A stretch of DNA of 12,856 nucleotides, taken from contig JAFECY010000081.1 of the NCBI GenBank assembly GCA_018241865.1, positions 1-12,856 of the forward strand, given 5' to 3'. The notes under the pieces are model-generated. The model saw only the letters and a program-made list of their open reading frames with translations, had not been told where the DNA came from and made no database searches. Shown one piece after another: positions 1 through 12,856 of this stretch. Made by a program: the position numbers and the translations under genes. Numbering within the stretch: the stretch's first letter is position 1; each line of letters opens with the position of its first letter. This DNA comes from Pseudomonadota bacterium. GTDB lineage: Bacteria; Pseudomonadota; Gammaproteobacteria; Burkholderiales; Burkholderiaceae_D.

Positions 1-2
1 CG

Positions 3-116
3 CAGGGTTTGCAAAATTTGCAGACCGTGTTGGCCGATGCCGGTAACGCTGCCATGCAAACCGCTAAAATTCAAAACGTGTTGCTGACCGAATTTTTGAT
101 TCAAGTCGCGGATTAG
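3..116 (+). CDS. C-terminal end of an unidentified protein (partial)
   Basis: An open frame enters from the left edge and ends at TAG (114-116), giving the last 37 residues of a protein whose start lies outside the window. The tail is rich in Gln, Leu and Ala, has no Pro, and reads as an amphipathic helix ending in FLIQVAD. The other two + strand frames are closed by stops within the first 90 bases, which supports this frame. I do not recognise the family, and the fragment is too short to assign one. It points in the same direction as the flavoprotein gene that starts 43 bases later. Confidence 0.5.
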   Translation, partial: QGLQNLQTVLADAGNAAMQTAKIQNVLLTEFLIQVAD

Positions 117-131
117 TTTTCTCTCCAGTAT

Positions 132-161
132 CATGCGATCTTTCACTCGATTGATCGCATG
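132..161 (+). promoter_or_regulatory. Perfect 9-bp hairpin covering the start codon of the flavoprotein gene
   Basis: CATGCGATC (132-140) and GATCGCATG (153-161) are perfect inverted repeats around a 12-base loop. The right arm contains the ATG at 159. No T-run follows, so it is not a standard intrinsic terminator. In RNA it would bury the start codon in a stem. It could instead be a protein-binding palindrome. Its function is inferred. Confidence 0.45.
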
Positions 162-1415
162 TCTTCCGATTCTTCTCTTGTTCACACGACAGCCCGCACT
201 GTCATCGTCATCGGCGGCGGCCCGGCCGGCCTGATGGCGGCAGAGGCGTTGAGCGGCCACGGTCTGGCGGTGCACGTGTATGACGCCATGCCTTCGGTCG
301 GCCGCAAATTTCTGCTGGCCGGCAAGGGCGGCATGAATCTGACCCATGCTGAACCGCACGACGCTTTTCTGTCGCGCTACGGTAAACGTCGCAACGAGAT
401 GGCACCACTGCTGGCAGCGTTCGATGCTGCGGCGTTGCGGGACTGGGCTAGCGCGCTTGGCATTGATACTTTCATCGGTAGTTCGCAACGCGTTTTCCCG
501 GTTGGCATGAAGGCCGCGCCTCTGCTGCGCGCTTGGCTACATCGGCTGCGTACGCAAGGCGTGCAATTGCATATGCGGCATCGCTGGTGCGGTTGGGGTG
601 ACGATCACACTGTGCGCTTCACCACGCCTGCCGGTGAACAAACGGTGCGCGCCGACGCCGTGGTGTTGGCGTTGGGCGGCGGCAGTTGGGCGCGACTCGG
701 TTCCGATGGCGCGTGGGTGACGTGGCTCAGCGAGAGGAACGTGGATGTCGCGCCGCTGCGGGCGGCTAATTGCGGTTTCGATGTGGCGTGGAGCGCGCAT
801 TTTCGTGAGCGATTTTCCGGCCAGCCGGTGAAGGCAGTCAGCATGGCTTGGGTCGATCACAACGGCGACATGCAGCAGCGTCAAGGCGAATTCGTGGTGA
901 CGGCGAATGGCGTCGAAGGCAGTTTGATCTATGCTGCGTCGGCCGCATTGCGCGACACGATTGCCGCAGCGGGCAGCGTGACCGTCACGCTCGACCTAGC
1001 ACCCGGCCGCGATCTGCAGCGCGTGTTGCACGATGTCGCCCATCCACGCGGCGCGCGCTCGATGGCCAGCCACTTGCAAAGCCGAGTCGGCATTGCCGGC
1101 GTTAAATCGGGATTGCTGCGCGAATGCGCATCGCAGGCTTTTTCTGATCCGCAGCAATTGGCGCAGGCAATCAAAGCGCTACCATTGAAACTGATTGCAG
1201 CCAGACCCATCGGCGAAGCCATCAGCAGCGCCGGCGGCGTGGCGTTCGAGGCGCTCGATGCGAACTTGATGCTACGCGCCTTGCCGGGCGTGTTTTGCGC
1301 CGGTGAAATGCTGGATTGGGAAGCGCCGACGGGTGGGTATTTGCTGACGGCTTGCTTCGCTAGCGGTCGCGCGGCTGGACGCGGTGCGCTGGCCTGGCTG
1401 GATGCCGTTCGATAA
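159..1415 (+). CDS. BaiN/HI0933-type FAD-dependent flavoprotein (TIGR03862-like)
   Basis: Predicted soluble FAD/NAD(P)-dependent oxidoreductase of 418 residues, typical for the HI0933/BaiN family. The substrate is unknown. The N-terminus has a Rossmann dinucleotide-binding motif GGGPAG (residues 19-24). The family signature GRKFLLAGKGGMNLTH follows at about 48-63, and the C-terminal FAD-contacting block with GEMLDW and TGGYL lies at about 382-395. The layout best fits the subgroup annotated as TIGR03862 (PP_4765-like). No membrane segment or signal peptide is seen. The ATG at 159 is chosen because the protein then begins just before the first beta strand. No clear ribosome-binding site precedes it, and the codon sits in a hairpin stem (132-161), so translation may be weak or controlled. 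The DUF3147 gene follows after 13 bp and is probably co-transcribed. The family is secure; the reaction is not known. Confidence 0.93.
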   Translation: MSSDSSLVHTTARTVIVIGGGPAGLMAAEALSGHGLAVHVYDAMPSVGRKFLLAGKGGMNLTHAEPHDAFLSRYGKRRNEMAPLLAAFDAAALRDWASALGIDTFIGSSQRVFPVGMKAAPLLRAWLHRLRTQGVQLHMRHRWCGWGDDHTVRFTTPAGEQTVRADAVVLALGGGSWARLGSDGAWVTWLSERNVDVAPLRAANCGFDVAWSAHFRERFSGQPVKAVSMAWVDHNGDMQQRQGEFVVTANGVEGSLIYAASAALRDTIAAAGSVTVTLDLAPGRDLQRVLHDVAHPRGARSMASHLQSRVGIAGVKSGLLRECASQAFSDPQQLAQAIKALPLKLIAARPIGEAISSAGGVAFEALDANLMLRALPGVFCAGEMLDWEAPTGGYLLTACFASGRAAGRGALAWLDAVR

Positions 1416-1428
1416 AAGGGGCAGGCAT

Positions 1429-1779
1429 ATGTATTACTACCTTATCAAACTCGTTGTCTCTGCTGTCCTGATCGTGGCGGTTTCCGAGATCGCCAAACGC
1501 AACAGCGGCGTTGCCGCATTGTTGGCATCGCTGCCGTTGACTTCGCTGCTGGCTTTCGTTTGGATGCAGCAGGAAGCGGCCGGCTCGGAAAAAATCGCCG
1601 CACTGTCGTTGCAGATTTTCTGGTTGGTGCTGCCGTCGTTGCCGTTGTTCCTTTTGCTGGCGTATCTGCTGCGGCATGGCTGGAGTTTTTGGCCTGCGCT
1701 TGCGTGCGCCTGCACCGCTGCCGCCAGTTGCTACCTGCTGATGCTGCCCTTGCTGCGCAAGTTCGGCATGGACGCCTGA
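1429..1779 (+). CDS. DUF3147 family small inner-membrane protein
   Basis: Predicted integral membrane protein of 116 residues with about four hydrophobic helices (roughly 5-22, 28-46, 61-82 and 86-108). The pattern VSEIAKRNSGVAALLASLPL followed by a conserved mid-protein FWLVLPS stretch matches my recollection of DUF3147, a family of unknown function. An in-frame ATG at 1384 overlaps the upstream gene and would add a soluble 15-residue leader. The ATG at 1429 is preferred because AAGGGG at 1416-1421 gives a well-spaced ribosome-binding site and the protein then starts MYYYLIK, usual for the family. It is probably translated in an operon with the flavoprotein gene. No function can be assigned. 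Confidence 0.9.
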   Translation: MYYYLIKLVVSAVLIVAVSEIAKRNSGVAALLASLPLTSLLAFVWMQQEAAGSEKIAALSLQIFWLVLPSLPLFLLLAYLLRHGWSFWPALACACTAAASCYLLMLPLLRKFGMDA

Positions 1780-1856
1780 ATCGCTGCGGAGCGTGTTGTA
1801 CAGACGTTCGTATGTTGGCGAGACGCCGAAAAAGCCACAATGCGGGACGCCCGCAC

Positions 1857-1880
1857 GCCGGTGCTTGAGCCGGTGCTTGA
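1857..1880 (+). repeat. Perfect 12-bp tandem duplication upstream of the acyltransferase gene
   Basis: GCCGGTGCTTGA occurs twice in immediate succession (1857-1868 and 1869-1880) in the 156-bp gap after the DUF3147 gene. The second copy is followed by GATAAT-like sequence, but no convincing -35 box is present at the right distance. I see no clear promoter or terminator in the rest of 1780-1935. Confidence 0.7.
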
Positions 1881-1935
1881 TAATCAGGCAAACGCCGAGG
1901 AGAATGCTTGGTTATCGACAAGGGAGGCAAGCGGC

Positions 1936-3261
1936 ATGGCGACTAGGCAGGCGAGCAAAAGCAAGGCATCGATTGCGGCGACTGCCGCGCAACTGGTCGG
2001 TGCGCAAAAATTGCGACGCACATTACGGCGCGAATTGCGTCAGCCGAGCGGCTTTCAGTTGGCCGTCGCCGACGGCATCGACATGCTCGACGGCGCGCAC
2101 TGGGATCGCGTGGTCAATGCGTCCACTTTTTTCTTGAGCCGCTCTTACCTGCGCATGCTGGAACAATTCGGCCCGGAGAATATCGCGCCGCGCTATGCAC
2201 TGGTGTTCGCCGACGGTGCGCCGGTGGCGGCGGCCTATCTGCAGATTGCCAGCGTGGGCGGTGAACGGCTCGGCAAAAAATCAGCCGCGGTCGAGGCGAA
2301 GAATCCGCTGCACCTGATCGCCAAGGTCTTGAGTCCGGCCGCGCAGACCATCAGCGCCGGCCTGCGCGAGCGGGTGCTGGTGTGCGGCAACTTGCTCAGC
2401 TATGGTTTTCATGGCGTCGCCTTCGCGCCCGGCAGCGACAAGCGTGCGTTGTGGCCGGCGGTGGCCGAAGCGATCTACCGCATCCGCCGCGCCGAAAAAC
2501 TGTCCGGTCAGACCGACTTCATTCTTATCAAAGACGTGACGCCGCCGGAAGCCGACGACATCGCCATCCTCTCGCATTTGTCTTATCACCCGTTGGAAAC
2601 CGAACCAAACATGGTGCTGGAGATGCCGGCGCAGTGGCAGAATTACGACGGCTACCTGGCTAGCCTTGCCTCCAAATACCGCAGCGCGATCAAACAACAA
2701 GTGTTCAAACCGATCGAAGCGGCCGGTTATACGGTCGAGCACTTGCATGACTTAGTTGGGCACGCAGAGCGGCTGCACGACCTCTATCTGCAAGTGCACG
2801 AGAAGGCCGGCTTGCGACTGTTCACTCTGCCGGCGTCCTACTTCGGCGCACTGGCGCACAGTGCCGGCGACAACTTGTTGTGCAGCGTGATTCGGCGCAA
2901 GGGCGACGATAGCGACGATAGCGACATCCTCGGCTTCATCATCACCTTGAAGGATGGCGACATCGGCTACGGCTACCACATCGGCTACGACCGCACAGTT
3001 GCCGCCGACGTGCCGCTCTATCTGCGCCTGTTGCATGCCGCTATCGCCGACGGCCTCGCGCTTGGCTGCCGCTGCCTTTCGCTCGGCCGCACTGCGCTGG
3101 AACCGAAGGCCGGGCTGGGCGCACGACCGGAAGCGATTAGCGTTTGGATGCGCCATCGACAGCCGGTGATGAATTTGTTCGTACGCAATCTGCTGCGCGT
3201 GATTCCACACGAAGAAGCGCCGGAGCGTAGTCCGTTCAAGAAGGCGGGGGCAGGGAAGTGA
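1936..3261 (+). CDS. FemAB/GNAT-like acyltransferase (peptidogalycan biosynthesis / Acetyltransf_6 type)
   Basis: Predicted cytoplasmic acyltransferase of 441 residues. The C-terminal half carries the features of the BioF2-like/FemAB-like GNAT group: SKYRSAIKQQ at about 246-255, a GFIITL then GYGYHIGYD strand pair at about 333-352, a following long helix, and GRTALEPKAGLGARPE at about 384-399. Related proteins are often labelled 'GNAT family N-acetyltransferase' or 'peptidogalycan biosynthesis protein'; the natural substrate is unknown. The frame is open back to an ATG at 1840, but the ATG at 1936 is preceded by AGGGAGG (1921-1927), a near-perfect ribosome-binding site eight bases away, so I start there. 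The region upstream is low-complexity. The gene contains a short in-frame 9-bp repeat coding Asp/Ser (2903-2920). The gene ends just before a palindromic repeat that may terminate transcription. Confidence 0.85.
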   Translation: MATRQASKSKASIAATAAQLVGAQKLRRTLRRELRQPSGFQLAVADGIDMLDGAHWDRVVNASTFFLSRSYLRMLEQFGPENIAPRYALVFADGAPVAAAYLQIASVGGERLGKKSAAVEAKNPLHLIAKVLSPAAQTISAGLRERVLVCGNLLSYGFHGVAFAPGSDKRALWPAVAEAIYRIRRAEKLSGQTDFILIKDVTPPEADDIAILSHLSYHPLETEPNMVLEMPAQWQNYDGYLASLASKYRSAIKQQVFKPIEAAGYTVEHLHDLVGHAERLHDLYLQVHEKAGLRLFTLPASYFGALAHSAGDNLLCSVIRRKGDDSDDSDILGFIITLKDGDIGYGYHIGYDRTVAADVPLYLRLLHAAIADGLALGCRCLSLGRTALEPKAGLGARPEAISVWMRHRQPVMNLFVRNLLRVIPHEEAPERSPFKKAGAGK

Positions 3262-3284
3262 GAGGGTGATGAAAGTGGAATTTA

Positions 3285-3538
3285 TTAACCACGGCGACAC
3301 GGCGCACACGGCGAAAGCTCCCTCCCTTTCAAGGGGAGGGCTGGGGGCGAAGCAGGGAATTCTGGCGGTATGCCGCCAGCCTGCGTAGCAGTATCCGCCT
3401 GCAAGCGGATACGCGCCCTGCAAGGGGGGATGGGGTAACACTTACGATCTCATAACCCATCCCCCTCCCAACCTCCCCCTTGAAGGGGGAGGAGTGCATT
3501 TTGTTCTTGCGCCGTGCCCGCCGTGTCGCCGTGGTTAA
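3285..3538. repeat. Nested palindromic repeat, copy 1 (upstream of the MgtC gene)
   Basis: About 254 bp fill most of the gap between the acyltransferase and MgtC genes. The outer ends are inverted repeats: 3285-3313 and the complement of 3510-3538 agree over their first 20 bases and differ at about two of the next nine. They are built of CACGGCG-type units. Inside lies a second inverted repeat, with CTCCCTCCCTTTCAAGGGG at the left and its relative, a TCCCCCTCC...CCCCTTGAAGG stretch, at the right. The core 3316-3438 is almost identical to that of copy 2. It holds two small hairpins, CTGGCGG/CCGCCAG (3362-3379) and GTATCCGC/GCGGATAC (3391-3412). No reading frame in it looks real. It could act as a bidirectional terminator. 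Confidence 0.9.
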
Positions 3539-3560
3539 AAAAGTTTTTCCATGCATTCAT

Positions 3561-3610
3561 CACAATCAACTAAACAACCACGCCCACAAAACCACAACAA
3601 GCATAACAAC
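3561..3610 (+). promoter_or_regulatory. A/C-rich, G-poor leader before the MgtC gene
   Basis: Of these 50 bases, about 45 are A or C, with two G and three T. The stretch runs straight into the AGGAGA ribosome-binding site at 3611. Such RNA would be almost unstructured. This could help ribosome loading or, since it is C-rich and G-poor, Rho loading. No promoter is obvious between the repeat's end and this stretch. Confidence 0.4.
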
Positions 3611-3624
3611 AGGAGACGACCATC

Positions 3625-4386
3625 ATGATTTCATTTAACGAATTGCTGCCCTATTGGACCGGTAATGAAATCTCCATCAACATCGTGGTCTTTCTCAACC
3701 TGTTGGGCGCGCTGGTGTTGGGTTTGCTGGTTGGCTATGAACGTTCTTACCACGGCCGCGCCGCTGGCATGCGCACCTTTGGTTTGGTGTGCATGGCATC
3801 GGCGGCGTTGACGGTGATGGCCGGCTACCCTGAATATTGGTACGGTGCGCGTGCCGCACACGTATTCCACAATCTGACCGGCATGAGTTTGCCCGATCCG
3901 ACGCGCATCATTCAAGGCACCGTCACCGGCATCGGCTTTCTCGGCGCCGGCGTGATCGTCAAAGATGGTTTTAGTATCAGCGGGCTGACCACCGCTGCGT
4001 CGATCTGGACTTCGGCTGTCATCGGTGTGATGGTCGGACTTGGTTTTTACGCCTCCGCCATCATGCTGTCGGTGTTGTCGGCCGGCTGCATGATCGTTGT
4101 CTCACGTTTGCAGGGCAAGCTGCCTTCGCGTCAAGCGATTGCGATGACGTTGAAGTTCAACAAAGGCTTCGTACCGCGCGAAGCGGCATTGCGCCAGATG
4201 GCGCGCGAGCGCGGCTACGAAATCGCCAGCGGCACGATCGCGGTCAACTACAGCGCCGGTCAAGCCGAATGGCACTTCGTCGCCATCGCCAACCATGACG
4301 TGCAAGCGCGTCTGACTGATCTGGCGCAGGAGATGAGTGTGTTCGAGGGGGTGGATAGTTTTCATCTTTCTTATGCGCGGAATTAG
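3625..4386 (+). CDS. MgtC/SapB family inner-membrane protein
   Basis: Predicted inner-membrane protein of 253 residues. The hydrophobic N-terminal domain (about 20-160, four to five helices) has the family hallmarks: LLVGYER at 34-40, GMRT at 48-51, and DPTRIIQGTVTGIGFLGAG at 91-109, followed by TTAASIWTSAVIGVMVGLG at 122-140. A soluble C-terminal domain (about 168-253) resembles the ACT-like tail of MgtC proteins. Known members support survival at low magnesium or in host cells, in Salmonella by inhibiting the F-type ATP synthase; the role here is not shown by the sequence. AGGAGA at 3611-3616, eight bases before the ATG, sets the start. The gene stands alone between two directly oriented copies of the same repeat, so it could be lost or duplicated by recombination between them. 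No Mg-sensing leader could be recognised. Confidence 0.94.
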   Translation: MISFNELLPYWTGNEISINIVVFLNLLGALVLGLLVGYERSYHGRAAGMRTFGLVCMASAALTVMAGYPEYWYGARAAHVFHNLTGMSLPDPTRIIQGTVTGIGFLGAGVIVKDGFSISGLTTAASIWTSAVIGVMVGLGFYASAIMLSVLSAGCMIVVSRLQGKLPSRQAIAMTLKFNKGFVPREAALRQMARERGYEIASGTIAVNYSAGQAEWHFVAIANHDVQARLTDLAQEMSVFEGVDSFHLSYARN

Positions 4387-4404
4387 ATGAACGGCCAAAT
4401 GCAT

Positions 4405-4666
4405 TGACCACGGCGAACACGGCGAACACGGCGAAAAACCAAGCTCCCTCCCTTTCAAGGGGAGGGCTGGGGGCGAAGCAGGGAATTCTGGCGGTATGCC
4501 GCCAGCCTGCGTAGCAGTATCCGCTTGCAAGCGGATACGCGCCCTGCAAGGGGGGATGGGGTAAACCTCACATCGCCCCATCGCCCCATCCCCTCCCGAC
4601 CTCCCCCTTGAAAGGGGAGGAGTGTTCAGGGTTTTGCGCCGTGTTCGCCGTGCCCGCCGTGGTTAG
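4405..4666. repeat. Nested palindromic repeat, copy 2 (between the MgtC gene and the zinc operon)
   Basis: About 262 bp with the same structure and orientation as copy 1. The outer inverted ends consist of iterated nine-base CACGGCGAA units (left from 4408; right ending CCGTGG at 4657-4662). The core 4442-4564 has the same length as 3316-3438 (123 bp) and differs at one base, which makes its second hairpin (4517-4538) a perfect 22-base palindrome. The right inner arm (about 4565-4622) differs more from copy 1 than the core does. No credible gene lies inside. The element ends about 10 bp before the predicted -35 box of the zinc operon. Confidence 0.9.
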
Positions 4667-4672
4667 AAAGGT

Positions 4673-4703
4673 TTGATCCCCGCAATCCCCCTAGTTGTAT
4701 AAT
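4673..4703 (+). promoter_or_regulatory. Probable promoter of the zinc operon
   Basis: A perfect -10 hexamer TATAAT (4698-4703) follows a TTGATC -35 candidate (4673-4678) with a rather long 19-base spacer. Transcription would begin near 4710, giving a short leader of about 30 bases before the GTG at 4740. A Zur operator would be expected here, but I cannot identify a convincing palindrome. Confidence 0.5.
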
Positions 4704-4739
4704 GCGCCCCATCCACTTCAATTCAATCCGCTCCGCGCA

Positions 4740-5057
4740 GTGAAACTCCGTCGCACATTGCTGACTGCCTTGCTGGCCATGATGCTGCTCTTGTCGCAGC
4801 AGCTCGGCCACATGCACGCCATGTCGCATCTGGCCGATGGTCGTGTCAACTCGTCGCACAATAAGCAGTTGCCGGTCGAGAAAGTCTGCGAGCTCTGTCT
4901 CGCGTTCTCGGCGGTCGGCGCGGCGCTGACCAGTTCGTTCCCCCCGCTGCCGACAACCGCCGCCGTCTATCCGCTGGCCGTCGTCGTCGCGCCGCAATTC
5001 CCGGCGCTGGCTCGCGTCGCCGCCTTCCGCTCTCGCGCACCTCCCGCCGTTCTCTGA
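4740..5057 (+). CDS. Small exported His/Cys protein at the head of the zinc operon
   Basis: Product of 105 residues, not assigned with certainty to any family. The N-terminus (KLRRTLLTALLAMMLLL) reads as a signal peptide or membrane anchor. It is followed by QQLGHMHAMSH, which has three closely spaced histidines, and then KVCELC, a CxxC pair, at about residues 44-49. A short hydrophobic stretch and a Pro/Ala-rich tail complete it. The overall layout is reminiscent of DUF2946-type proteins. Histidines plus CxxC in the first gene of a zinc operon suggest, by inference, a metal-binding or sensing role in the periplasm. The GTG at 4740 is chosen because it starts a proper signal peptide; the frame upstream runs into the -10 box and offers only a TTG. 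The ribosome-binding site is weak. A terminator-like hairpin separates it from the porin gene. Confidence 0.7.
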   Translation: MKLRRTLLTALLAMMLLLSQQLGHMHAMSHLADGRVNSSHNKQLPVEKVCELCLAFSAVGAALTSSFPPLPTTAAVYPLAVVVAPQFPALARVAAFRSRAPPAVL

Positions 5058-5071
5058 TTGCCTGATTCGAG

Positions 5072-5096
5072 CCATGCCCTATCGCGGCATGGTTTT
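5072..5096 (+). terminator. Terminator-like hairpin between the small protein and the porin gene
   Basis: CCATGCC (5072-5078) pairs with GGCATGG (5086-5092) around a seven-base loop and is followed by TTTT (5093-5096), with another T-run at 5104-5111. The stem is only 7 bp and the first T-run is short, so partial termination inside the operon seems more likely than a full stop. It would make the first gene more abundant than those that follow. Confidence 0.5.
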
Positions 5097-5124
5097 CGTC
5101 ATTCTTTTTTTCAGAGAGATTTCC

Positions 5125-6525
5125 ATGTCCAAGAATTCCCTTGCAGGAGCCGCGCTGGCTCTTGCTGCGGCTATGCCGCACGCGGCATTTGCCGCTAGCG
5201 ACCACGACCTGCAACAAATACGCAACGAGATTGCACAAATGAAGGCTGGCTACGAAGCGCGTATCCAGGCGTTGGAACAACGACTGCAGCAAGCTGAAGC
5301 GAAGACCGCCGTCGTAGCGCAACAGCAGGCTCAGGTGGCAAGCGCCGCACCTGTTGCTGTTGCATCTGCTGCGCCGGCCGCCACAGCCAACGCCTTCAAT
5401 CCCGCCGTCTCGCTCATCCTCGGCGGCACCTACGCCAATCTGTCGCAAGATCCGGCCAACTATCGCTTGCAAGGTTTCATTCCCGGCGACGATATCGGCC
5501 CCGGCAAGCGCGGTTTCAATCTTGGCGAATCGGAGCTGACCCTGCATGCCAATATCGATCCGCATTTTTCCGGCGCGCTGACTTTCTCGCTCGATGCCGA
5601 CAACAAGGCCAGCGTCGAGGAAGCCTTCTTCGAGGGCAAAGGGTTCGCCAGCGGCGTCAATGTCAAAGCCGGCCGCTTCCTGTCATCGGTCGGCTATCTG
5701 AATAGCCAGCATGCCCACGCGTGGGATTTCGTCGATGCACCTTTGGCGTATCAGGCTTTCCTCGGTGGACAATACAAACCGGACGGCTTGCAAGTGAAGT
5801 GGCTGGCGCCGACCGATCGCTTCATCGAGATCGGCGCGGAAATCGGCCGCGGTGCAGCTTTCCCCGGCAACGAGCGCAACAAAAACGGCTCCGGCGCGGG
5901 CGCGGTGTTCGCCCACATCGGCGACGATATCGGCGCAAGCCACAGTTGGCGTGCCGGCTTGTCTTATCTGAGCACCGTTGCTGCCGATCGCGGCTACGAC
6001 GATGTCAACAGCACCGGCGCGGCGGTGAACAATGCGTTTAGCGGCAGCAGCAAACTGTGGATCGCCGACGCCATCTACAAGTGGGCTCCGAACGGCAACA
6101 CCACCCAGCGCAACTTCAAGTTGCAGGGCGAGTATTTCCGTCGCAATGAAAACGGCACGCTGACCTACGACACCGCCGGCGCGGCCTTGACCGACGCTTA
6201 CGCCTCGGCGCAATCGGGCTGGTATTTGCAAGGCGTGTACCAGTTCATGCCGATGTGGCGTGTCGGCCTGCGTTACGACCGACTCAATTCGGGCACGCCG
6301 GATATTGGCCAGGTCAATAGCGGCGCGTTGACGGCGGCCGACTTCCGCAATCTCGCCGGCTACAAGCCTTCGCGCGGCAGCATCATGCTCGATTATTCAC
6401 CGTCCGAATTCAGCCGCTTCCGCTTGCAATTCGCGCGCGACCGCTCGCGGCCGGATGCCAGCGATAACCAGATATTCCTGCAATACATCATGAGTCTTGG
6501 TGTGCATGGCGCACATTCATTCTAA
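5125..6525 (+). CDS. Porin-like outer-membrane barrel protein with N-terminal coiled coil
   Basis: Predicted outer-membrane channel of 466 residues. Residues 1-23 form a signal peptide ending in AFA. Residues about 26-70 are a heptad-rich, Gln/Glu-rich coiled coil, as in OprP/OprO-type porins. After an Ala/Pro linker (about 71-87) the rest shows alternating short amphipathic strands with Gly/Asp/Asn turns, and the last residue is Phe, the usual assembly signal of outer-membrane barrels. There is no TonB box or plug domain, so it is not a TonB-dependent receptor. Its place directly before znuA-znuB suggests passage of zinc or a zinc complex, but phosphate or sugar porins look much alike and the substrate is inferred. 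The ATG at 5125 follows AGAGAG at 5113-5118. The stop codon at 6523-6525 nearly touches the ribosome-binding site at 6524-6529. Confidence 0.85.
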   Translation: MSKNSLAGAALALAAAMPHAAFAASDHDLQQIRNEIAQMKAGYEARIQALEQRLQQAEAKTAVVAQQQAQVASAAPVAVASAAPAATANAFNPAVSLILGGTYANLSQDPANYRLQGFIPGDDIGPGKRGFNLGESELTLHANIDPHFSGALTFSLDADNKASVEEAFFEGKGFASGVNVKAGRFLSSVGYLNSQHAHAWDFVDAPLAYQAFLGGQYKPDGLQVKWLAPTDRFIEIGAEIGRGAAFPGNERNKNGSGAGAVFAHIGDDIGASHSWRAGLSYLSTVAADRGYDDVNSTGAAVNNAFSGSSKLWIADAIYKWAPNGNTTQRNFKLQGEYFRRNENGTLTYDTAGAALTDAYASAQSGWYLQGVYQFMPMWRVGLRYDRLNSGTPDIGQVNSGALTAADFRNLAGYKPSRGSIMLDYSPSEFSRFRLQFARDRSRPDASDNQIFLQYIMSLGVHGAHSF

Positions 6526-6535
6526 GGAGCTTGCC

Positions 6536-6676
6536 ATGAAAAAATATTTCTCTGCAGTTGGCGACGCAATGCCAGCAAAAACATTGCACCACGGCGAGCA
6601 CGGCGGTCACGGCGAAATCAAAAAGTTTTCGTCGTGTTCGCCGTGGTTCAAGCCTAGTTTTGTCGGGAAGCGCATG
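6536..6676 (+). other. Alternative, longer 5' start of znuA running through a repeat
   Basis: AAGGAG (6524-6529) and the ATG at 6536 form the best translation start in the area, right after the porin stop. The frame is the znuA frame and stays open through the palindromic repeat at 6589-6646, adding 46 residues before the methionine at 6674. The added part is not a signal peptide and contains repeat-coded HHGEHGGHGE. Either the protein really carries this extension, or this start now yields a non-native precursor, or the 6674 start is used. Confidence 0.5.
6589..6646. repeat. Short outer-only copy of the palindromic repeat inside the 5' end of znuA
   Basis: This 58-bp inverted repeat runs from CCACGGCGAGCACGG to the mirrored CGTGTTCGCCGTGG. 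The ends match the outer arms of the two large copies near the MgtC gene, but the 123-bp core and the inner CTCCC/GGGAG arms are missing. It looks like the empty form of the composite element. It is read in frame with znuA. Confidence 0.85.
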
Positions 6677-7591
6677 CGGCCGAAGTTGCAAAAATTTTCT
6701 CTGCTACTTTCCATGCTCGTGTTTTTCGCCACGGCGCTGCCTGCGCACGCCGCGCTCAACGTCTTCACCTGCGAACCGGAATGGGCGGCGCTGGCGACTG
6801 AGCTCGGTGGCGATAAGGTAAAGGCATCCAGCGCTACCAATGCACTGCAAGACCCGCATCACATCGAAGCGCGGCCGAGTCTGATCGCCCACACTCGCAA
6901 TGCCGATCTGCTGATTTGCACCGGGCTGGAACTGGAAGTCGGTTGGCTGCCGGTGTTGCTGCAGCAATCCGGCAATGCCAAGGTCGCGCCCGGCCAGCCC
7001 GGCAATCTCGAAGCGGGGCAGTTCGTGCCGCGCCTCGACGTGCCGTCCAGACTTGACCGCAGCGACGGCGATGTGCATGCGGCCGGTAATCCGCACATCC
7101 AGCAAGACCCGCGCAACATCGCCCGCGTGGCCGATGTCTTGAGCAAGCGTCTGGCGCAGATCGACCCCGCCAATGCCGCCTACTATCAGGATCGCTACAA
7201 AGATTTCAGCACGCGCTGGAACGCCGCCATGCAAAAGTGGACACAGCAAGCCGCGCCGCTGAAAGGTGTCGCCATCGTCGAGCATCACAAGAACATGGAA
7301 TACCTGATGAATTGGCTCGGCCTGCGCCAGGTCGGCACGCTGGAACCCAAACCCGGCGTCGAGCCGAGCGCGGCACATTTGGCGTCGCTGCGCGAGCAAT
7401 TGCAAAAGCAGCCGGCGAAGATGGTCGTGCGCGCCGCCTATCAAGATGATCGCGCCTCGCAATGGCTATCGGAACAGGCGAAGATACCAGCGGTGGTGCT
7501 GCCCTTCACCGTCGGCGGCGACGAGCGTGCCAAAGATTTATTCGGTTTGTTCGACGACACCGTGCAACGCTTGTTGGAGGCGCTCAAATGA
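6674..7591 (+). CDS. znuA: Zinc ABC transporter substrate-binding protein (ZnuA family)
   Basis: Periplasmic zinc-capture protein of 305 residues from this start. Residues 1-26 form a signal peptide (a KLQK n-region, a hydrophobic core, then ALPAHA). The mature part has the cluster A-I fold pattern. The likely zinc histidines are in DPHHIEARPS (H62/H63), NPHIQQDP (H141) and VEHHKN (H204/H205), and the fourth ligand may be the acidic residue in GGDER (D283). The long charged His-rich loop of many ZnuA proteins is nearly absent: only a short DRSDGDVHAAG segment precedes the second histidine. The start at 6674 is preferred because it gives a normal signal peptide, but its GGGAAG site is only three bases away and a stronger start lies at 6536. 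The stop overlaps the znuB start (ATGA), so the two are translationally coupled. Confidence 0.92.
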   Translation: MRPKLQKFSLLLSMLVFFATALPAHAALNVFTCEPEWAALATELGGDKVKASSATNALQDPHHIEARPSLIAHTRNADLLICTGLELEVGWLPVLLQQSGNAKVAPGQPGNLEAGQFVPRLDVPSRLDRSDGDVHAAGNPHIQQDPRNIARVADVLSKRLAQIDPANAAYYQDRYKDFSTRWNAAMQKWTQQAAPLKGVAIVEHHKNMEYLMNWLGLRQVGTLEPKPGVEPSAAHLASLREQLQKQPAKMVVRAAYQDDRASQWLSEQAKIPAVVLPFTVGGDERAKDLFGLFDDTVQRLLEALK

Positions 7592-8370
7592 GCGCGGATT
7601 TTAGCGGTCTCGATTGGGGCATCCTCGGTCCGGCCATGCTGGCCGGCGTGCTGGTGCTGGTGACGCACGTACCGCTTGGCGCGCAAGTGCTCAAGCGCGG
7701 CATCGTTTTTATCGATCTCGCCATTGCCCAGATTGCTGGCCTTGGTGTGATCTTCGCCACTATGGCGGATCTCGATCCTAACGGCTGGGGCATGCAGGCG
7801 GCAGCCGGCGGTGCGGCGTTCTTGGGTGCCTTGCTGCTGACCTGGACCGAGAAGCGTTGGCCGGAAGTGCAAGAGGCGCAGATCGGTGTGCTGTTTGTGC
7901 TAGCGGCCACCGGCGGCTTGCTGCTGCTGGCGCATAACCCGCATGGCGGCGAGCATTTGCGCGATCTGTTGTCGGGACAAATTTTGTGGGTGCGTTATCA
8001 GCAACTCATCATGCCGGCCATCGGCGCGGCGGTCATCATCGCCGTGCTGTGTTTTTGGCGCGGACGTATCGGCACGCTCGGGTTTTATCTTTTGTTCGCG
8101 CTGGCGGTAACGGCTTCGGTGCAACTGGTCGGCGTTTATCTGGTCTTCGCCAGCCTCATCATCCCCAGCCTGGGCACGCGCCTGTACGCCGAGCGCAAGC
8201 GCCTGCCGCTGTCCTACGCCATCGGCATCGCCGGCTATGCCGCCGGGTTGGTGTTGTCCTCGCTGTTCGACTTGCCATCCGGCGCGCTGATCGTCTGGTG
8301 TCTGGCGCTGATTGCTGTGTTCGTGAATATTATCGGACCGAAACGACGCGTGCTAGCCGTGGATGCTTGA
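7588..8370 (+). CDS. znuB: Zinc ABC transporter permease (ZnuB, ABC-3 family)
   Basis: Inner-membrane permease of 260 residues with about seven to eight hydrophobic helices, typical for the ABC-3 family. The signatures are HVPLGAQVLKRGIVFIDLAIAQIAGLG near residues 27-53, the region that contacts the ATPase, then GGEHLRDLLSGQILW around 123-137, and LVGVYLVFASLIIPSLG around 178-194. The ATG at 7588 overlaps the znuA stop by four bases and follows GGAGG (7576-7580) with seven bases between, so the start is secure. The frame is open further upstream inside znuA, but that part codes no permease sequence. No ATP-binding gene (znuC) follows or precedes it in this window, so the ATPase must come from elsewhere. 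Confidence 0.94.
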   Translation: MSADFSGLDWGILGPAMLAGVLVLVTHVPLGAQVLKRGIVFIDLAIAQIAGLGVIFATMADLDPNGWGMQAAAGGAAFLGALLLTWTEKRWPEVQEAQIGVLFVLAATGGLLLLAHNPHGGEHLRDLLSGQILWVRYQQLIMPAIGAAVIIAVLCFWRGRIGTLGFYLLFALAVTASVQLVGVYLVFASLIIPSLGTRLYAERKRLPLSYAIGIAGYAAGLVLSSLFDLPSGALIVWCLALIAVFVNIIGPKRRVLAVDA

Positions 8371-8376
8371 TGTATT

Positions 8377-8401
8377 CTCCTGCGCCAACGCGGTGCAGGA
8401 G
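8377..8401 (+). promoter_or_regulatory. Strong hairpin just after znuB
   Basis: CTCCTGCGCC (8377-8386) and GGTGCAGGAG (8392-8401) form a 10-bp stem with one G-U pair around the loop AACGC. It begins six bases after the znuB stop and has no T-run behind it. It may protect the 3' end of the zinc mRNA from decay or take part in a switch with the next hairpin. Confidence 0.5.
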
Positions 8402-8419
8402 AGCGGCGAAACGTGTAAA

Positions 8420-8443
8420 CTCACCGCTTTTTTTTGCGGTGAG
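8420..8443 (+). promoter_or_regulatory. Hairpin with an eight-T loop before the HPP-CBS gene
   Basis: CTCACCGC (8420-8427) pairs perfectly with GCGGTGAG (8436-8443) around TTTTTTTT (8428-8435). It ends nine bases before the GTG start at 8453 and reaches into the ribosome-binding region. An alternative stem, AGCGG (8402-8406) with CCGCT (8424-8428), would leave the T-run free as a weak terminator. The two pairings exclude each other, as in an attenuator. The function is inferred. Confidence 0.4.
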
Positions 8444-8452
8444 CGAGGGTGT

Positions 8453-9631
8453 GTGAAGAGAGTAGGGTTTTGGTTGCGCGGATTTTTTCCCGACCGCGTG
8501 CGCGTCAATGGTGTGGAACGTTTACGCGCTTGTTGCGGCGCGCTACTCGGCATCCTGCTGACCGGGTTGATAACACGCGCTTCGCTTGGGCCAACATCCG
8601 ATTTGCCGTTGCTGATGGCGCCGCTGGGCGCATCTGCAGTCTTATTGTTTGCAGTGCCCGCCAGTCCATTGGCGCAACCTTGGTCCATCATCGGCGGCAA
8701 TACCATCGCGGCCTTGATCGGCGTGATCTTTGCCCACGGCATCGCTGATCCAGTGTTGGCCGCCGCGCTCGCCGTCGGCTGTTCCATCGGCATCATGTTC
8801 GCGTTGCGCTGCCTGCATCCGCCCAGCGGCGCGGTGGCGTTGACGGCAGTGCTGGGCGGACCGGCCATTCATGCACTCGGCTACCATTTCGTGCTGTTCC
8901 CGGTCGTTGCCAATTCTGTCTTGCTGTTGCTGGTCGCGCTGCTGTTCAACAACGCCACCCGCCGCCGCTATCCACACGCTGCGCATATCGATCACAGCAA
9001 CACCCATCGCACTGCCGATGCCATTCCTACCGACCGCCTTGGCTTCAAGCCGGAAGACCTCGACGCCGTACTCAAGCAATACAACCAAGTGCTGGACGTC
9101 AGTCGCGACGATCTCGAAGAACTGTTCATGCAGACCGAGATGCACGCCTACCGCCGTCGCTTCGGCGAAATCACCTGTGCCGATGTCATGTCGCGTGACG
9201 TGGTCGCGGTGGAATTCGGCACGCCCTTGGAAGAAGCTTGGACGCTACTGCGCCAACACCGCATCAAAGCATTGCCGGTGATCGACCGCGCACGACGCGT
9301 GATCGGCATCGTCACGCTAGTCGATTTCATGCGCCACGCCGAGATCGACCGTCACGACAGTCTAGGCGACAAACTGCGCCGCCTGATACGCCGCACACTG
9401 GAAACGCATTCGGAAAAACCTGAGGTGGTCGGCCAGATCATGACCAAGGCAGTGCAGGCCGCCCGCACCGACATGCACATCATCGAACTGGTGCCGATGC
9501 TCTCCAATCGCGGCAAGCACCACGTGCCGGTGATCGATGGCGAGCGGCGATTGGCGGGCGTGCTGACGCAGTCGGATTTGATCGGCGCGCTGTATCGCGG
9601 TCGGTTGGGGGATACGGAGCAGGCGGCTTGA
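8453..9631 (+). CDS. HPP-family membrane protein with C-terminal CBS pair
   Basis: Predicted inner-membrane protein of 393 residues. The HPP domain (about 20-165) has four to five hydrophobic helices and the naming motif LHPPSGA at 121-127. A charged linker follows, then two CBS motifs: about 243-296 (ADVMSRDVVAVEFGTPLEEA to VTLVDFM) and about 328-380 (IMTKAVQAARTDMHIIELVP to LTQSDLIGALY). CBS pairs usually bind adenine nucleotides and regulate the attached domain. HPP proteins are linked to nitrite transport in chloroplasts and cyanobacteria; the bacterial substrate is open. An ATG at 8363 in the same frame overlaps znuB, but its extra 30 residues cross two hairpins and do not resemble the family. 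GTG at 8453 with GAGGG at 8445-8449 is preferred. Whether it belongs to the zinc operon is unclear. Confidence 0.88.
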   Translation: MKRVGFWLRGFFPDRVRVNGVERLRACCGALLGILLTGLITRASLGPTSDLPLLMAPLGASAVLLFAVPASPLAQPWSIIGGNTIAALIGVIFAHGIADPVLAAALAVGCSIGIMFALRCLHPPSGAVALTAVLGGPAIHALGYHFVLFPVVANSVLLLLVALLFNNATRRRYPHAAHIDHSNTHRTADAIPTDRLGFKPEDLDAVLKQYNQVLDVSRDDLEELFMQTEMHAYRRRFGEITCADVMSRDVVAVEFGTPLEEAWTLLRQHRIKALPVIDRARRVIGIVTLVDFMRHAEIDRHDSLGDKLRRLIRRTLETHSEKPEVVGQIMTKAVQAARTDMHIIELVPMLSNRGKHHVPVIDGERRLAGVLTQSDLIGALYRGRLGDTEQAA

Positions 9632-9668
9632 GTGGGTGGTGCTTTTTATGGCGGCTTTTGCGTCAAAC

Positions 9669-10922
9669 TTATCGCGCTTTTTGGTTGATTTTGACGAGTG
9701 AAATAAATTCAGCCACGTCAAGCAATTGAGATTGTTGTCTCTCACTGAACGTGGAATGCAAAGATCGAGGAACGACGAGTTGCAACTGGTGATTTTTCAT
9801 CTCGTCTGTTTGCGCTTCGCTGATTGCAGGCTCCAATGTCACGAGATGCTTTGCAGGGATGCGCGAGGCCTCGCTCAACACTTGTCGCCATCGGTCTTTG
9901 CAGGTCGTTTTTGCACCCAACATCAGCAGACGTTCCGTAGGAAAGCTTGCGTCGTGATATGCCATGAAGGAAGGAAACAGAAAATCCGGCCTTGTATTAT
10001 TTTCCGTTACAAGAACTTTTGTTCCTTTTTCAAACTGCAGATCGTGCTTCTGGAAAAGATGGCCAAGATGACCTTCAAAGGCATGGCCAACTCTGGATTT
10101 CCGCCGATTTTGCACGCTGAGTGAATAGCTGATGAAGGCATCTACTCCTTTCTCATCTATTCCGAAGCCAATCGCAAGGCGCCTCAATACAAAATAGCGT
10201 TCATAGATACGGAAAAGTTTTTCTTCATGTTCCATCCACGCCATGAGCGTCGTGTCAGGCGAAGCGATGGCATCTATTTCATTCCCGATGCTGTCCCTTG
10301 CGAACATTGAAAAAGCATCCGTGCGCGGAAAATCTTTATCGCCGAATTGCGCCAGCAAACGATCCAGCCATGCGCCATCATCAAGAGCCGGTTTGCTCAG
10401 ATTAAAGCCCAGTGATTCGAGCATCAACCGCAGCGGCAGCAACAGGGTTGATGCATTCAGATCGCCTTGTCTGAAATCTTCATCAATGACGGACAATCCG
10501 AAAATGGCGCGCAACTGCTTCTCCGCCGCGCTTTTTTGGGGAGAAAAACACATCAGAAGTCGTCCGTCACGATGTTTTGCAACGAGGAAGAAATCCCCCG
10601 GCTTGAATCGCATGGTTACCGGAGAATCTTCGTAGTACATCCTATATTCTGGACTGCGGCCGGGTTGTTTTGAACGTGCATCGTACCAGGTCACTTCGCT
10701 ATCGCAGATCAGTGGTTCATCCTGGTCGTCTGCAAGGTAAACATGCAAAGCCGGATAGCGGAACACTTCCCCCTTGGATGGTATGCCGAGCCAGTTTCTG
10801 GCTCCTGCTGAAGGAAGTCCGCCTATCTCATGTCCGTTTGAGCGCGCCGGATCAGCGTCCACTGCGCTGAGATATTTGGCGGCCACACCGTCGAAATAGT
10901 CCGTGATTTTGTCAGTGTACAT
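9669..10922 (-). CDS. Type II restriction endonuclease, EcoRII family (predicted CCWGG)
   Basis: DNA-cutting enzyme of 417 residues, close to full-length EcoRII (about 400) and much longer than the single-domain PspGI type. The C-terminal catalytic domain (about 265-410) has NRRKSRVGHAFEGHLGHLF, then RPDFLFP (311-317), AYHD (321-324) and AKTTCKDRWRQ (337-347). Y322 and K338 have the spacing of EcoRII Y308 and K324. The N-terminal part (about 10-145) is more diverged but shows SNGHEIGGLPSAG, which I align with the B3-like effector domain of EcoRII. A type IIE enzyme needing two sites is therefore likely. The start is 17 bp after the methyltransferase stop on the same strand. The spacer lacks a clear ribosome-binding site, which would keep endonuclease levels low. 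The target CCWGG is inferred from EcoRII and from the partner methyltransferase. Its G+C is far below that of the neighbours. Confidence 0.94.
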   Translation of the reverse strand: MYTDKITDYFDGVAAKYLSAVDADPARSNGHEIGGLPSAGARNWLGIPSKGEVFRYPALHVYLADDQDEPLICDSEVTWYDARSKQPGRSPEYRMYYEDSPVTMRFKPGDFFLVAKHRDGRLLMCFSPQKSAAEKQLRAIFGLSVIDEDFRQGDLNASTLLLPLRLMLESLGFNLSKPALDDGAWLDRLLAQFGDKDFPRTDAFSMFARDSIGNEIDAIASPDTTLMAWMEHEEKLFRIYERYFVLRRLAIGFGIDEKGVDAFISYSLSVQNRRKSRVGHAFEGHLGHLFQKHDLQFEKGTKVLVTENNTRPDFLFPSFMAYHDASFPTERLLMLGAKTTCKDRWRQVLSEASRIPAKHLVTLEPAISEAQTDEMKNHQLQLVVPRSLHSTFSERQQSQLLDVAEFISLVKINQKAR

Positions 10923-10939
10923 AACGATCGTCTAAGCTT

Positions 10940-12211
10940 TCAGGCTGCTAGGATGGGAAGTTCGGGTTGCATGCCATTGGTGATGAATGGCACCATCACG
11001 CGCGCCATCTCGCGCATGACGCCGACAACAACCGAGTTGCCGAATTGTTTGTAGGCGCGTGTGTCGGATACTGGAATCTGGAAAGTATCGGGGAATCCCA
11101 TTAGGCGCGCACATTCGCGCGGCGTGAGTCGGCGCGGATTTTTTCTGCTACCTTGGCTGACGAGAATTTCCGAACCGTCTTTGTAGTAACGCGCCGAGAG
11201 AGTGCGGGTAACTGAGTCACGAGACACTAGGCCGAAACCGAAGCCGTTTCCGGCAGCGCGGTGTTTTGCTGCATACGCTTGCAGATAATTCCACAGCCCG
11301 TCCGTGAGCGTGTATTTGCCATTGACCTTCTTCGTCATGTGATCGAAGTAGCGATTTGCATCCCAAGGCAGGTAAGGTTCGGTTCCATCGGTCTTGTGCA
11401 ATATGTCCTTCAGGGTTGTTTGGCCTTTTTCAGGAAGGTGCAAGATATCCCAGTCAAACGCCACAGGCTCTCTGAATCCGACGATGATGATTCTTTCGCG
11501 GTGTTGAGGAACGAAATGTGCGCCGTCTATGATTTCGTAGTGCACATCGTAGCCAAGTTCATCCTTGAGTGTACGTATGACGACGTCGAACGTGCGCCCC
11601 TTGTCATGGGAGCGCAAGTTTTTCACATTTTCGAGCAGAAAAGCTTTGGGGCGTTTTTTGGCAATGATCCGCGCGACATCGAAAAACAGAGTGCCTTGCG
11701 TTTCGTCTGCAAATCCGTGCGCACGTCCGAGAGCATTTTTCTTGGATACGCCGGCAATCGAAAAAGGCTGGCACGGAAAGCCGCCAAGGAGAACATCATG
11801 ATCGGGGATGTCGTTTTCATCGACTTGCGTAATGTCTCCGGCGATCGCGTGCCCGTTCGGGAAATTTGTCGCATAGGTTTTCTGTGCGTAAGCATCCCAT
11901 TCGCTGGTGAACACGCAACTGCCCCCCGCTTCTTCAAAGCCGGCACGGATGCCGCCGATTCCCGCAAACAGATCGATGAACGTGAAGGAGGCATCTTCTT
12001 CTGCATGTGGCAGTGGCAAGGGCAGTATTCGCTGGAGTGCATGGACGACATATGCCGGCGGCTGGGCTTGCTTCAGCTCCCAGCGACGTATCGTCCGCGG
12101 GTCCACGTCAAGATGTTTGGCAAGTGCAGTTTTTGAATGATGTTCAAGCGCAGTCAGTAGGTATTCGTGCGCGTGAGTTGCATCCGGGAAGGTGTGGATA
12201 ACGGTCGCCAT
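10940..12211 (-). CDS. dcm: DNA cytosine-5 methyltransferase, Dcm/M.EcoRII family, with N-terminal helix-turn-helix
   Basis: Methylates cytosine in the target, predicted CCWGG, to protect host DNA from the adjacent endonuclease. It has 423 residues from this start. Residues about 23-62 form a helix-turn-helix (TALAKHLDV turn DPRTIRRWEL). The catalytic part follows: motif I FAGIGGIRAGF (82-92), motif IV GFPCQP with nucleophile C147, motif VI LLENVKNL (E194), motif VIII QHRER (236-240) and motif X GNSVVV (391-396). The target region GNGFGFGLVS...SVTRTLSARYYKDG and the block PRRLTPRECARLMGF are nearly those of E. coli Dcm, which supports CCWGG. The frame is open to an ATG at 12241, but that codon lies inside a palindromic operator about 13 bases from the predicted transcript start and has no ribosome site. 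The ATG at 12211 has GAGGA upstream. The helix-turn-helix suggests self-repression. Confidence 0.95.
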   Translation of the reverse strand: MATVIHTFPDATHAHEYLLTALEHHSKTALAKHLDVDPRTIRRWELKQAQPPAYVVHALQRILPLPLPHAEEDASFTFIDLFAGIGGIRAGFEEAGGSCVFTSEWDAYAQKTYATNFPNGHAIAGDITQVDENDIPDHDVLLGGFPCQPFSIAGVSKKNALGRAHGFADETQGTLFFDVARIIAKKRPKAFLLENVKNLRSHDKGRTFDVVIRTLKDELGYDVHYEIIDGAHFVPQHRERIIIVGFREPVAFDWDILHLPEKGQTTLKDILHKTDGTEPYLPWDANRYFDHMTKKVNGKYTLTDGLWNYLQAYAAKHRAAGNGFGFGLVSRDSVTRTLSARYYKDGSEILVSQGSRKNPRRLTPRECARLMGFPDTFQIPVSDTRAYKQFGNSVVVGVMREMARVMVPFITNGMQPELPILAA

Positions 12212-12235
12212 CGTGTCCTCGCTGGGTGAAATAGC

Positions 12236-12248
12236 GGACATTTTGTCC
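12236..12248. promoter_or_regulatory. Probable autoregulatory operator of the methyltransferase (M.SsoII type)
   Basis: On the coding (minus) strand the sequence reads GGACAAAATGTCC, a perfect GGACA/TGTCC inverted repeat (with flanking bases, CGGACA...TGTCCG at 12235-12249). As I recall, the operator bound by the N-terminal domain of M.SsoII is GGACAAATTGTCC, one base different. It lies about 6 to 19 bases after the predicted transcript start, where bound protein would block transcription. Confidence 0.75.
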
Positions 12249-12260
12249 GATCAATATCCC

Positions 12261-12289
12261 ATTATGGATTAGATTGCTGTATGCATCAA
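12261..12289 (-). promoter_or_regulatory. Probable promoter of the restriction-modification operon
   Basis: On the minus strand TTGATG (12284-12289) and CATAAT (12261-12266) match the -35 and -10 consensus at four and five of six positions, with an ideal 17-base spacer (12267-12283). Transcription would start near 12254, just upstream of the operator, giving a leader of about 43 bases to the ATG at 12211. Confidence 0.65.
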
Positions 12290-12359
12290 CAGTATTTTCG
12301 GATCGTTTGATAGCTGCATTGTTGGTAAAACGCGCCTGCATGCTTCGTGTTCGGCGATT

Positions 12360-12380
12360 AAAAAAGTATTTCGTGAAATA
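12360..12380 (-). terminator. Possible weak terminator of the ygiQ gene
   Basis: On the minus strand, soon after the ygiQ stop codon, TATTTC and GAAATA (12367-12380) form a short A+T-rich stem, followed by C and six T (12360-12366). The position suits a terminator for ygiQ, but the stem is weak. Confidence 0.35.
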
Positions 12381-12384
12381 TGCT

Positions 12385-12856
12385 TTACTTCCGCCCACTG
12401 CGCGTACTGCCAATCGCATTCCTGCGCCCACCACGCTGTTCCGCCGGCTTCCTCGCAATCGCCGCCCCATCCCGCGGCTTCGGCATGCCGAATTGCTTCG
12501 CCACCTTAGCCGGCCCCGGCGTTTCCTTGCGGCGTTCGACCGCTATCAGTCCCGGCGTCGCCGCCGTATTACGCGGCACCAGGCAGCGTTCCGCGCTGCC
12601 GATCAAATCGGAACGTCCCATGCGTTGCAATGCTTCGCGCAGTACCGGCCAGTTTTCCGGGTCGTGGTAGCGCAGGAAAGCCTTGTGCAGTTTTCTTACT
12701 TTGCCCAAGCGCGGCGTCTCGACGGTTTCCGAATCTTCAGTGACTTTGTGCAGCGGGTTTTTGCGCGTGTGGTACATGGTGGTGGCCATGGCCATCGGCG
12801 TCGGCATGAAGGTTTGCACCTGATCGAGGCGGAAGCCGTTTTTCTTCAGCCAGAGC
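12385..12856 (-). CDS. ygiQ: YgiQ family radical-SAM protein, C-terminal part (partial)
   Basis: The frame enters from the right edge on the minus strand and ends at TAA (12387-12385), giving the last 156 residues of a protein that is normally more than 600 long. [20 protein letters not shown], then MYHTRKNPL, then [20 protein letters not shown] and [16 protein letters not shown] match the conserved end of YgiQ (UPF0313) proteins. The Fe-S cluster CxxxCxxC and the B12-like domain would lie outside the window. The final 60 or so residues are a basic, Pro/Ala/Gly-rich tail, as in many family members. The internal GTG at 12819 is not a start, since the family sequence continues upstream of it. 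The cellular role of YgiQ is not established. G+C is high again here, in contrast to the neighbouring restriction genes. Confidence 0.93.

Follow-up and report, generated by a model that had tools for sequence, protein, structure and literature searches.

It is a standing question how a restriction–modification system senses that methylation has made its host safe. The locus analyzed here lies in a 12,856-nucleotide stretch of DNA that we call the window. A methyltransferase gene whose product has a helix-turn-helix (HTH) head is followed by an EcoRII-type nuclease gene and preceded by a palindrome. A first-pass annotation had read this arrangement as a self-contained control circuit in which the operator was a site of 13–15 bp. 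That reading is right in outline but incomplete, because it saw only the centre of the operator. The conserved site is a 37-bp two-part palindrome, with outer arms that recur in relatives, and we put the probability at roughly 0.7 that it is an operator through which the HTH-methyltransferase would repress both its own promoter and the downstream nuclease gene.

An HTH-methyltransferase in tandem with an EcoRII-type nuclease

The methyltransferase (Table 1) scores 333 bits against TIGR00675 (dcm superfamily), above the cut-off, and its best solved relatives are 3lx6 (E = 2e-104) and 3me5 (E = 2.8e-104), both named cytosine-specific methyltransferase, in agreement with the earlier description of the target region of the enzyme as Dcm-like. 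At subfamily level, the match to PRK10458 cytosine methylase (E = 1.5e-128) lies below the cut-off. AlphaFold2 predicts a four-helix HTH domain at the N-terminus (helices 11–24, 27–34, 38–45 and 53–62), which supports the HTH that the first-pass annotation had placed there; the Pfam HTH-type matches listed for the protein are all under their curated cut-offs.

The recognition helix is PRTIRRWE in the window and DRTIRRWE in M.Ecl18kI of plasmid pECL18. Residues R39 and R42 of the 423-aa form correspond to R35 and R38 of M.Ecl18kI, both of which fall on the helix that is identical in the window protein, and the literature reports poor binding and no regulation for R35A and R38A. Statements on published work here draw on PMC3695355, PMC3978073, PMC3874152, PMC6100179, PMC12707154 and PMC8989522. 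This shared RTIRRWE, together with the link between operator core and helix type described below, supports the view of the protein as an SsoII-type head on a Dcm/EcoRII-type body. By analogy with its relatives, the system would be specific for CCWGG; a Dcm homologue with CCNGG specificity is reported in the literature. The window (1–12856) contains 10 CCWGG sites, where dinucleotide shuffles predict 20.3, a depletion that would fit avoidance of the target of a CCWGG system.

The nuclease matches the EcoRII-C domain (PF09019) with E = 4.2e-67 and contains a KTTCKDRW stretch common to EcoRII; the profile search gave no sequence-level match to EcoRII-N. Its AlphaFold2 model (mean pLDDT 85.9) aligns with full-length EcoRII (1na6_B) over 426 columns (E = 3.6e-23, TM 0.52, rmsd 10.4), and much more weakly with the B3 domains of LEC2, UbaLAI and ARF (E = 0.006 and up). 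The predicted structure supports the two-domain nuclease that had been proposed, and points to a B3-like N-terminal effector domain; the C-terminal half is identified by sequence and the N-terminal half by predicted fold.

Because no promoter-like or terminator-like site was found within 10880–11500, the nuclease gene is probably co-transcribed with the methyltransferase gene, and with the two genes in tandem repression of the methyltransferase would lower the nuclease too. No further gene fits into the 17 bp between them. Where relatives have a nuclease match of at least 100 residues, the nuclease lies on the strand of the methyltransferase in 48 of 54 loci and on the opposite strand in six, three of them EcoRII-type. 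Many relatives (for example, L008, L067, L069 and L073) have a nuclease that starts 440–530 bp after the methyltransferase, with room for one small gene, and in two plasmid records a very short patch repair endonuclease overlaps the nuclease match. The upstream neighbour of the window system (12385–12855, minus strand) contains a DUF3362 domain; it also matches the YgiQ radical SAM profile weakly, at the C-terminal end of that profile.

Table 1. Coordinates of genes, domains and candidate control elements in the window
Feature	Position	Strand	Remarks
EcoRII-type restriction endonuclease gene	9669..10922	-	417 aa; 17 bp after methyltransferase gene, same strand
HTH-(cytosine-5) methyltransferase gene	10940..12211	-	423 aa from likely start 12211; earlier in-frame ATG 12241
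N-terminal HTH domain, residues 11-62	12026..12181	-	AlphaFold2 model m48c0edc93dd9
Recognition helix PRTIRRWE, residues 38-45	12077..12100	-	RTIRRWE identical in M.Ecl18kI
Shine-Dalgarno-like GAGG for start 12211	12217..12220	-	sequence
Right outer arm CCCA	12223..12226	-	family consensus TCCC at k=15-18, here ACCC; conserved in relatives
Whole two-part palindrome GGG-N31-CCC, putative operator	12224..12260	-	37 bp
Inner operator arms CGGACA-AAA-TGTCCG	12235..12249	-	13-mer core 12236-12248, centre 12242; conserved before related genes
Left outer arm GGGA	12257..12260	-	directly after -10 hexamer; k=15-18 from centre; conserved in relatives
Predicted -10 hexamer CATAAT	12261..12266	-	match to consensus only; presumed transcription start near 12254
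Predicted -35 hexamer TTGATG	12284..12289	-	match to consensus only

The palindromic core follows the recognition helix

The GGACA/TGTCC palindrome that the first-pass annotation reported is present in the window: on the minus strand, CGGACAAAATGTCCG at 12235–12249 has 0 mismatches to CGGACANNNTGTCCG, and the core GGACAAAATGTCC (12248–12236) extends to CGGACA...TGTCCG over 12249–12235. The 2.39-Mb assembly (87.6% complete) contains a single exact copy of GGACANNNTGTCC. Nine centres in the window are complementary at k = 2..7, where k is the distance from the centre, which is to say that they are perfect repeats with 6-bp arms and a 3-nt loop. Repeats of such shape are thus not rare here, the inverted repeat by itself is within chance for the window, and palindrome statistics in the window are uninformative, so the case for this palindrome rests on comparison.

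The nearest comparison is the one already drawn by the earlier annotation, to the M.SsoII site AGGACAAATTGTCCT, and it holds: over the 13-mer the two are identical but for one base, in the spacer. The M.SsoII site is reported at +7..+21 of the methyltransferase transcript; with a start assumed seven bases after the predicted −10 hexamer, the window 15-mer would lie at about +6..+20.

A search for the core before related methyltransferase genes, which had been suggested as a check, was productive. The first set comprised 80 loci from a scan of species genomes with the methyltransferase, and in 38 of these 80 relatives GGACA-N3-TGTCC, with at most one mismatch, lies at −50..+5 of the codon for residue 11 of the long form. 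The other matches at this threshold in the 80 loci were one at −190 and 19 in the remaining DNA. A script assigned the recognition helix in 73 loci; among the seven others is L048, with a type A helix, a one-mismatch core and a mislocated motif I. For helices of type A ([RK]xxRRW), the core was present in 37 of 49 loci with at most one mismatch and in 46 of 49 with at most two, against 0 of 24 and 5 of 24 for other helices.

An independent set was drawn from other genome searches, in which 65 loci (L086–L150) were reduced by 5 from plasmids, 6 that visual inspection of N-termini showed to be duplicates and 9 loci without a helix, and the near-identical pairs L099/L100 and L146/L147 were kept. 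Its upstream DNA was unexamined before the core test, and the helix classes had been set when the first-set operators were known, as were the N-terminal translations of every locus together with the residues upstream of them; on these terms, the core preceded 14 of 19 type A loci with at most one mismatch and 18 of 19 with at most two, compared with 4 of 26 and 11 of 26 loci with other helices. All four non-A carriers have the close helix type xxKRW.

Shuffles gave 0.05–0.2 loci at one mismatch or fewer and 1.25–3.3 at two. Because non-A loci also exceed shuffles at two mismatches (5 of 24 versus 1.25; 11 of 26 versus 1.65), several of them with cores such as TGACATAATGTCA, the link between helix and core is graded rather than absolute. 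Relatives are not independent draws, and with one representative per 80%-identity group (66 of 118 loci) the core, at one mismatch or fewer, was found in 23 of 33 type A loci versus 4 of 33 others (Fisher p = 3e-6). Two loci with a 2-nt spacer (L017 and L030, GGACA-AA-TGTCC) were counted as failures in all core tests. Judged from these comparisons, conservation of the core before related genes is far beyond chance, and the inner arms follow the HTH recognition helix. Further relatives are found outside the genome sets: the viral collection holds six loci related to this methyltransferase, and 9 of 1967 records in a plasmid search with the 80-aa HTH piece cover at least 80% of that piece.

A second pair of arms extends the site to 37 bp

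When 52 loci (51 relatives and the window) were aligned on the core, a second symmetric block appeared at k = 15–18, GGGA on the left and TCCC on the right, whose GGG/CCC arms lie 11 bp outside the inner arms. The block is strongly conserved, with C at +17 in 51 of 52 loci and G at −17 in 46 of 52. Complementarity at k = 15–18 is 0.63–0.88; centres drawn at random 200 times gave a background with a mean of 0.26 and a single-value maximum of 0.48. Between the arms (k = 7–14) it is raised less, to 0.35–0.54, perhaps from A+T richness. The window's own outer arms, TGGG...CCCA, are complementary at k = 16–19 (TGGG = 12261–12258).

We tested the outer arms independently in 23 loci whose helix is of type A or KRW and whose core departs from the consensus at no more than two positions. 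The GGGA/TCCC score averaged 6.57 of 8 at the true centre, with 19 of 23 loci scoring at least 6. It fell to a mean of 4.4–4.6 when the centre was off by one base and to 0.9–4.0 at larger shifts, where secondary peaks at 11 bp arise from the 11-bp step between inner and outer arms. Of 69 type A loci, 33 are preceded by an exact GGG-N31-CCC, versus 2.65 expected. In the two loci with a 2-nt spacer the outer arms are also one base closer, and the 11-bp step from inner to outer arm is kept.

We also considered the outer arms as near-cognate CCWGG sites (CTGGG/CCCAG) and dropped this idea: the A and G that would have to follow CCC are poorly conserved (27 and 24 of 52 loci), and the Ecl18kI-like clade has ACAC at this place. 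In the titles and abstract beginnings surveyed, the outer arms are undescribed, and the extent and modular make-up of the operator appear to be new; the primary papers on EcoRII, SsoII and Ecl18kI regulation may hold an earlier description.

Promoter and start codon

The well-spaced promoter that the first-pass annotation placed upstream of the palindrome can be found in the window, where TTGATG-17-CATAAT (12289–12261) matches the consensus at 9 of 12 positions. Shuffles of this region are expected to yield 0.5 promoter-like sites, so that the window promoter alone is weak evidence. It is also atypical. Counting the window, there are 70 loci of type A or KRW, and in 56 of them the best −10-like hexamer falls within the core (offset −3 in 41 loci and −1 in 15), with a −35-like hexamer just outside the left outer arm, although this is an uncontrolled count and a hexamer of that kind is favoured by the make-up of the core; the window is one of the 14 exceptions. 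Whichever −10 is used, the operator covers the RNA polymerase site.

As the annotation had noted, the palindrome overlaps the ATG at 12241, the earliest in the methyltransferase frame. Translation likely starts at the ATG at 12211, 31 bases past the core centre, a choice favoured because GAGG at 12220–12217 ends five bases ahead of it. Among the 70 loci, the first in-frame ATG lies inside the core in 12 and 22–46 bases past the centre in 50, and 8 have none by that rule. The likely start therefore agrees with the annotation, but the overlap has lost its significance: the core can itself spell AATG(TCC), as in those 12 of 70 loci, which makes the overlap a by-product of the core, and we rejected any special meaning of an ATG within the palindrome.

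Inner and outer arms vary separately across clades

Relatives with other heads or other bodies offer a view of which part of the protein each pair of arms follows. The EcoRII-type methyltransferase class comprises seven loci, some close to each other, with the helix RE[ST]LN[RK]W. In six of the seven, GGG-N31-CCC stands at exactly 37 bp around inner arms of the GTGA/TCAC kind (0–6 hits in 300 shuffles; the search stretch was shifted 40 bases upstream because the N-terminus is longer), and the seventh, L117, has GGG...CAC at the outer-arm place. L082 encodes a nuclease that closely matches the EcoRII chain of known structure (E = 2.6e-247), L117 and L119 have convergent nuclease genes and the L116 nuclease is annotated as MvaI/BcnI family; L107, L110 and L115 are EcoRII-type by methyltransferase only.

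The Ecl18kI-like set consists of Ecl18kI, Vagococcus L232, phage phi1207.3 L233 and the viral contigs L151, L154, L155 and L156. (Among 71 viral loci, L151–L156 carry [DE]RT[IL]RRW; L152 and L153 nearly duplicate L151 and were excluded.) All seven combine the helix [DE]RT[IL]RRW with a core that has one mismatch or none, and at the outer-arm places they have GTG on the left in six of seven and CAC on the right in four of seven. Within this set L154 is almost the same as L233, and Ecl18kI is the only member with reported CCNGG specificity. In Ecl18kI itself the left arm reads GGAA and the right arm ACAC, in contrast to GGG/CCC in the window.

In the three small classes B, C and D, GGG/CCC arms occur at 35 bp (2 of the 5 class B loci) or at 36 bp (2 of the 4 in class C, 3 of the 6 in class D), and some of these carry yet other inner arms. 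Helix class E (17 loci, many alphaproteobacterial) showed no peak for GGG/CCC arms. From this small sample, the outer arms seem to follow the clade of the catalytic domain.

These patterns bear on what the outer arms are. The core of 13–15 bp could alone be the operator, as in SsoII, with the outer arms being promoter or ribosome-binding features that play no part in binding. The best −35-like hexamer indeed ends just before the left arm in many loci, the right arm stands shortly ahead of the start codon, and the specific contacts of M.Ecl18kI and M.SsoII are reported within the 15-mer only. We nevertheless hold this to be quite improbable, as the outer arms flank the core centre symmetrically and are conserved almost to the same degree as the core, one-base shifts of the centre cut their score sharply, and GGG-N31-CCC recurs at the same 37-bp distance before six of seven EcoRII-type methyltransferase genes. 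A chance inverted repeat, or a leader RNA hairpin with no protein partner, would be in keeping with the nine perfect repeats of this shape in the window, but it is hardly credible given the conservation of the core and its linkage to the helix, and the left outer arm, lying upstream of the predicted start, would go untranscribed in a hairpin.

Alternatively, the outer arms might be half-sites for a second HTH pair, so that four methyltransferases bind, like the paired sites of C proteins. The type A outer arm GGGA(C)A does resemble GGACA shifted by 11 bp, and GTGTCA/TGACAC in some Ecl18kI-like loci is half-site-like. If one helix read both, however, the outer arms should change with the inner arms, whereas in EcoRII-type loci the inner arms become GTGA/TCAC-like and GGG/CCC stays, and inner arms also differ in some loci of classes B, C and D; moreover, M.SsoII is reported to bind its site as two molecules. 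We therefore regard a second HTH pair as unlikely. A wider possibility is a modular operator code in C5-methyltransferase repressors, in which the HTH would read helix-dependent inner arms and the catalytic body would read clade-dependent outer arms (GGG/CCC for Dcm/EcoRII-type, GTGT/ACAC for Ecl18kI-like), so that the operator would occupy the methylating domain. As a general rule this code is tentative, and we rate it at somewhat less than even odds.

A proposed model of autorepression and its relation to known systems

In the mechanism that we propose for the window, two methyltransferase molecules would contact the inner arms, GGACA and TGTCC, through their RTIRRWE recognition helices, while the catalytic domains of the two would extend a further turn of the DNA helix to the GGG/CCC arms. 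The bound methyltransferases would cover the promoter and start site and exclude RNA polymerase. For M.SsoII, two molecules per site are reported, with 48–52 nt protected and catalytic domains on flanking DNA without specificity, a span that includes k = 15–18.

A catalytic domain docked on the operator could not also work a CCWGG site, and unmethylated sites would in consequence keep the enzyme off the operator. Methyltransferase autorepression is known, also for EcoRII. M.EcoRII is reported to repress its own gene, so the combination of autorepression with an EcoRII-type system, which the first-pass annotation had brought out, is not new; according to a review, M.EcoRII represses only when its sites are methylated, and a catalytic mutant represses when the methylation comes from Dcm. 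If operator and methylation sites compete for one and the same protein, this methylation-dependent repression would be explained, and a catalytic domain seated on the outer arms would make the competition direct. Binding, repression, the domain that reads the outer arms and the titration step are what we infer for the window, the last by analogy with the titration reported for M.EcoRII.

The window system shares features with each of the two best-known types and departs from both. Like SsoII and Ecl18kI, it has an HTH methyltransferase, with the M.Ecl18kI helix, but its catalytic domain is Dcm-like and its genes are in tandem, 17 bp apart, where theirs are divergent. In SsoII/Ecl18kI, repression of the methyltransferase is reported to raise the nuclease indirectly. 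With the genes in tandem, this divergent-promoter logic cannot apply, and the window circuit would set the level of the operon, not the methyltransferase-to-nuclease ratio as proposed for SsoII. With EcoRII, the window system has in common a Dcm-like catalytic domain, a two-domain nuclease and the GGG-N31-CCC found in six of seven EcoRII-type loci, but EcoRII-type loci differ from it in recognition helix (SRETLNRW in L082) and in inner arms, and in L082, L117 and L119 the methyltransferase and nuclease genes are convergent rather than tandem. The SsoII-type site has been likened to a C-box; C-protein systems likewise have an HTH regulator at a palindromic operator, although there a separate small gene encodes the controller, which here is presumably fused to the methyltransferase.

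If the modular code is true, autorepression would be a direct read-out of the free methylation sites that are left, in EcoRII too. The outer arm where the catalytic domain should lie is a mutable sequence that could join the EcoRII and SsoII observations. More broadly, the operator offers a pattern with which control regions in this family of methyltransferases can be sought, and its helix–operator pairs are a natural set for the study of HTH specificity.

Other operator-like sequences among relatives

Several groups of relatives depart from the window pattern. In four loci with the helix EGHIYRW (L067, L069, L070 and L097), the right inner arm is TGTCA, not TGTCC, followed by AATTCCC, a possible natural operator-base change alongside helix residues. 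In alphaproteobacterial loci with the helix ATLYRW (L075, L076 and L078–L080), TTCTTG ... CAAGAA/CAAAAA-like repeats replace this operator. A phage-borne group with the helix ERT[IV]RGW (L157–L166 and others) has no GGACA core before the gene; among these phage-borne Ecl18kI relatives, L161–L163, L169 and L170 have CCGGGT(C/T)AAAAA..CGGATA-like stretches in that position.
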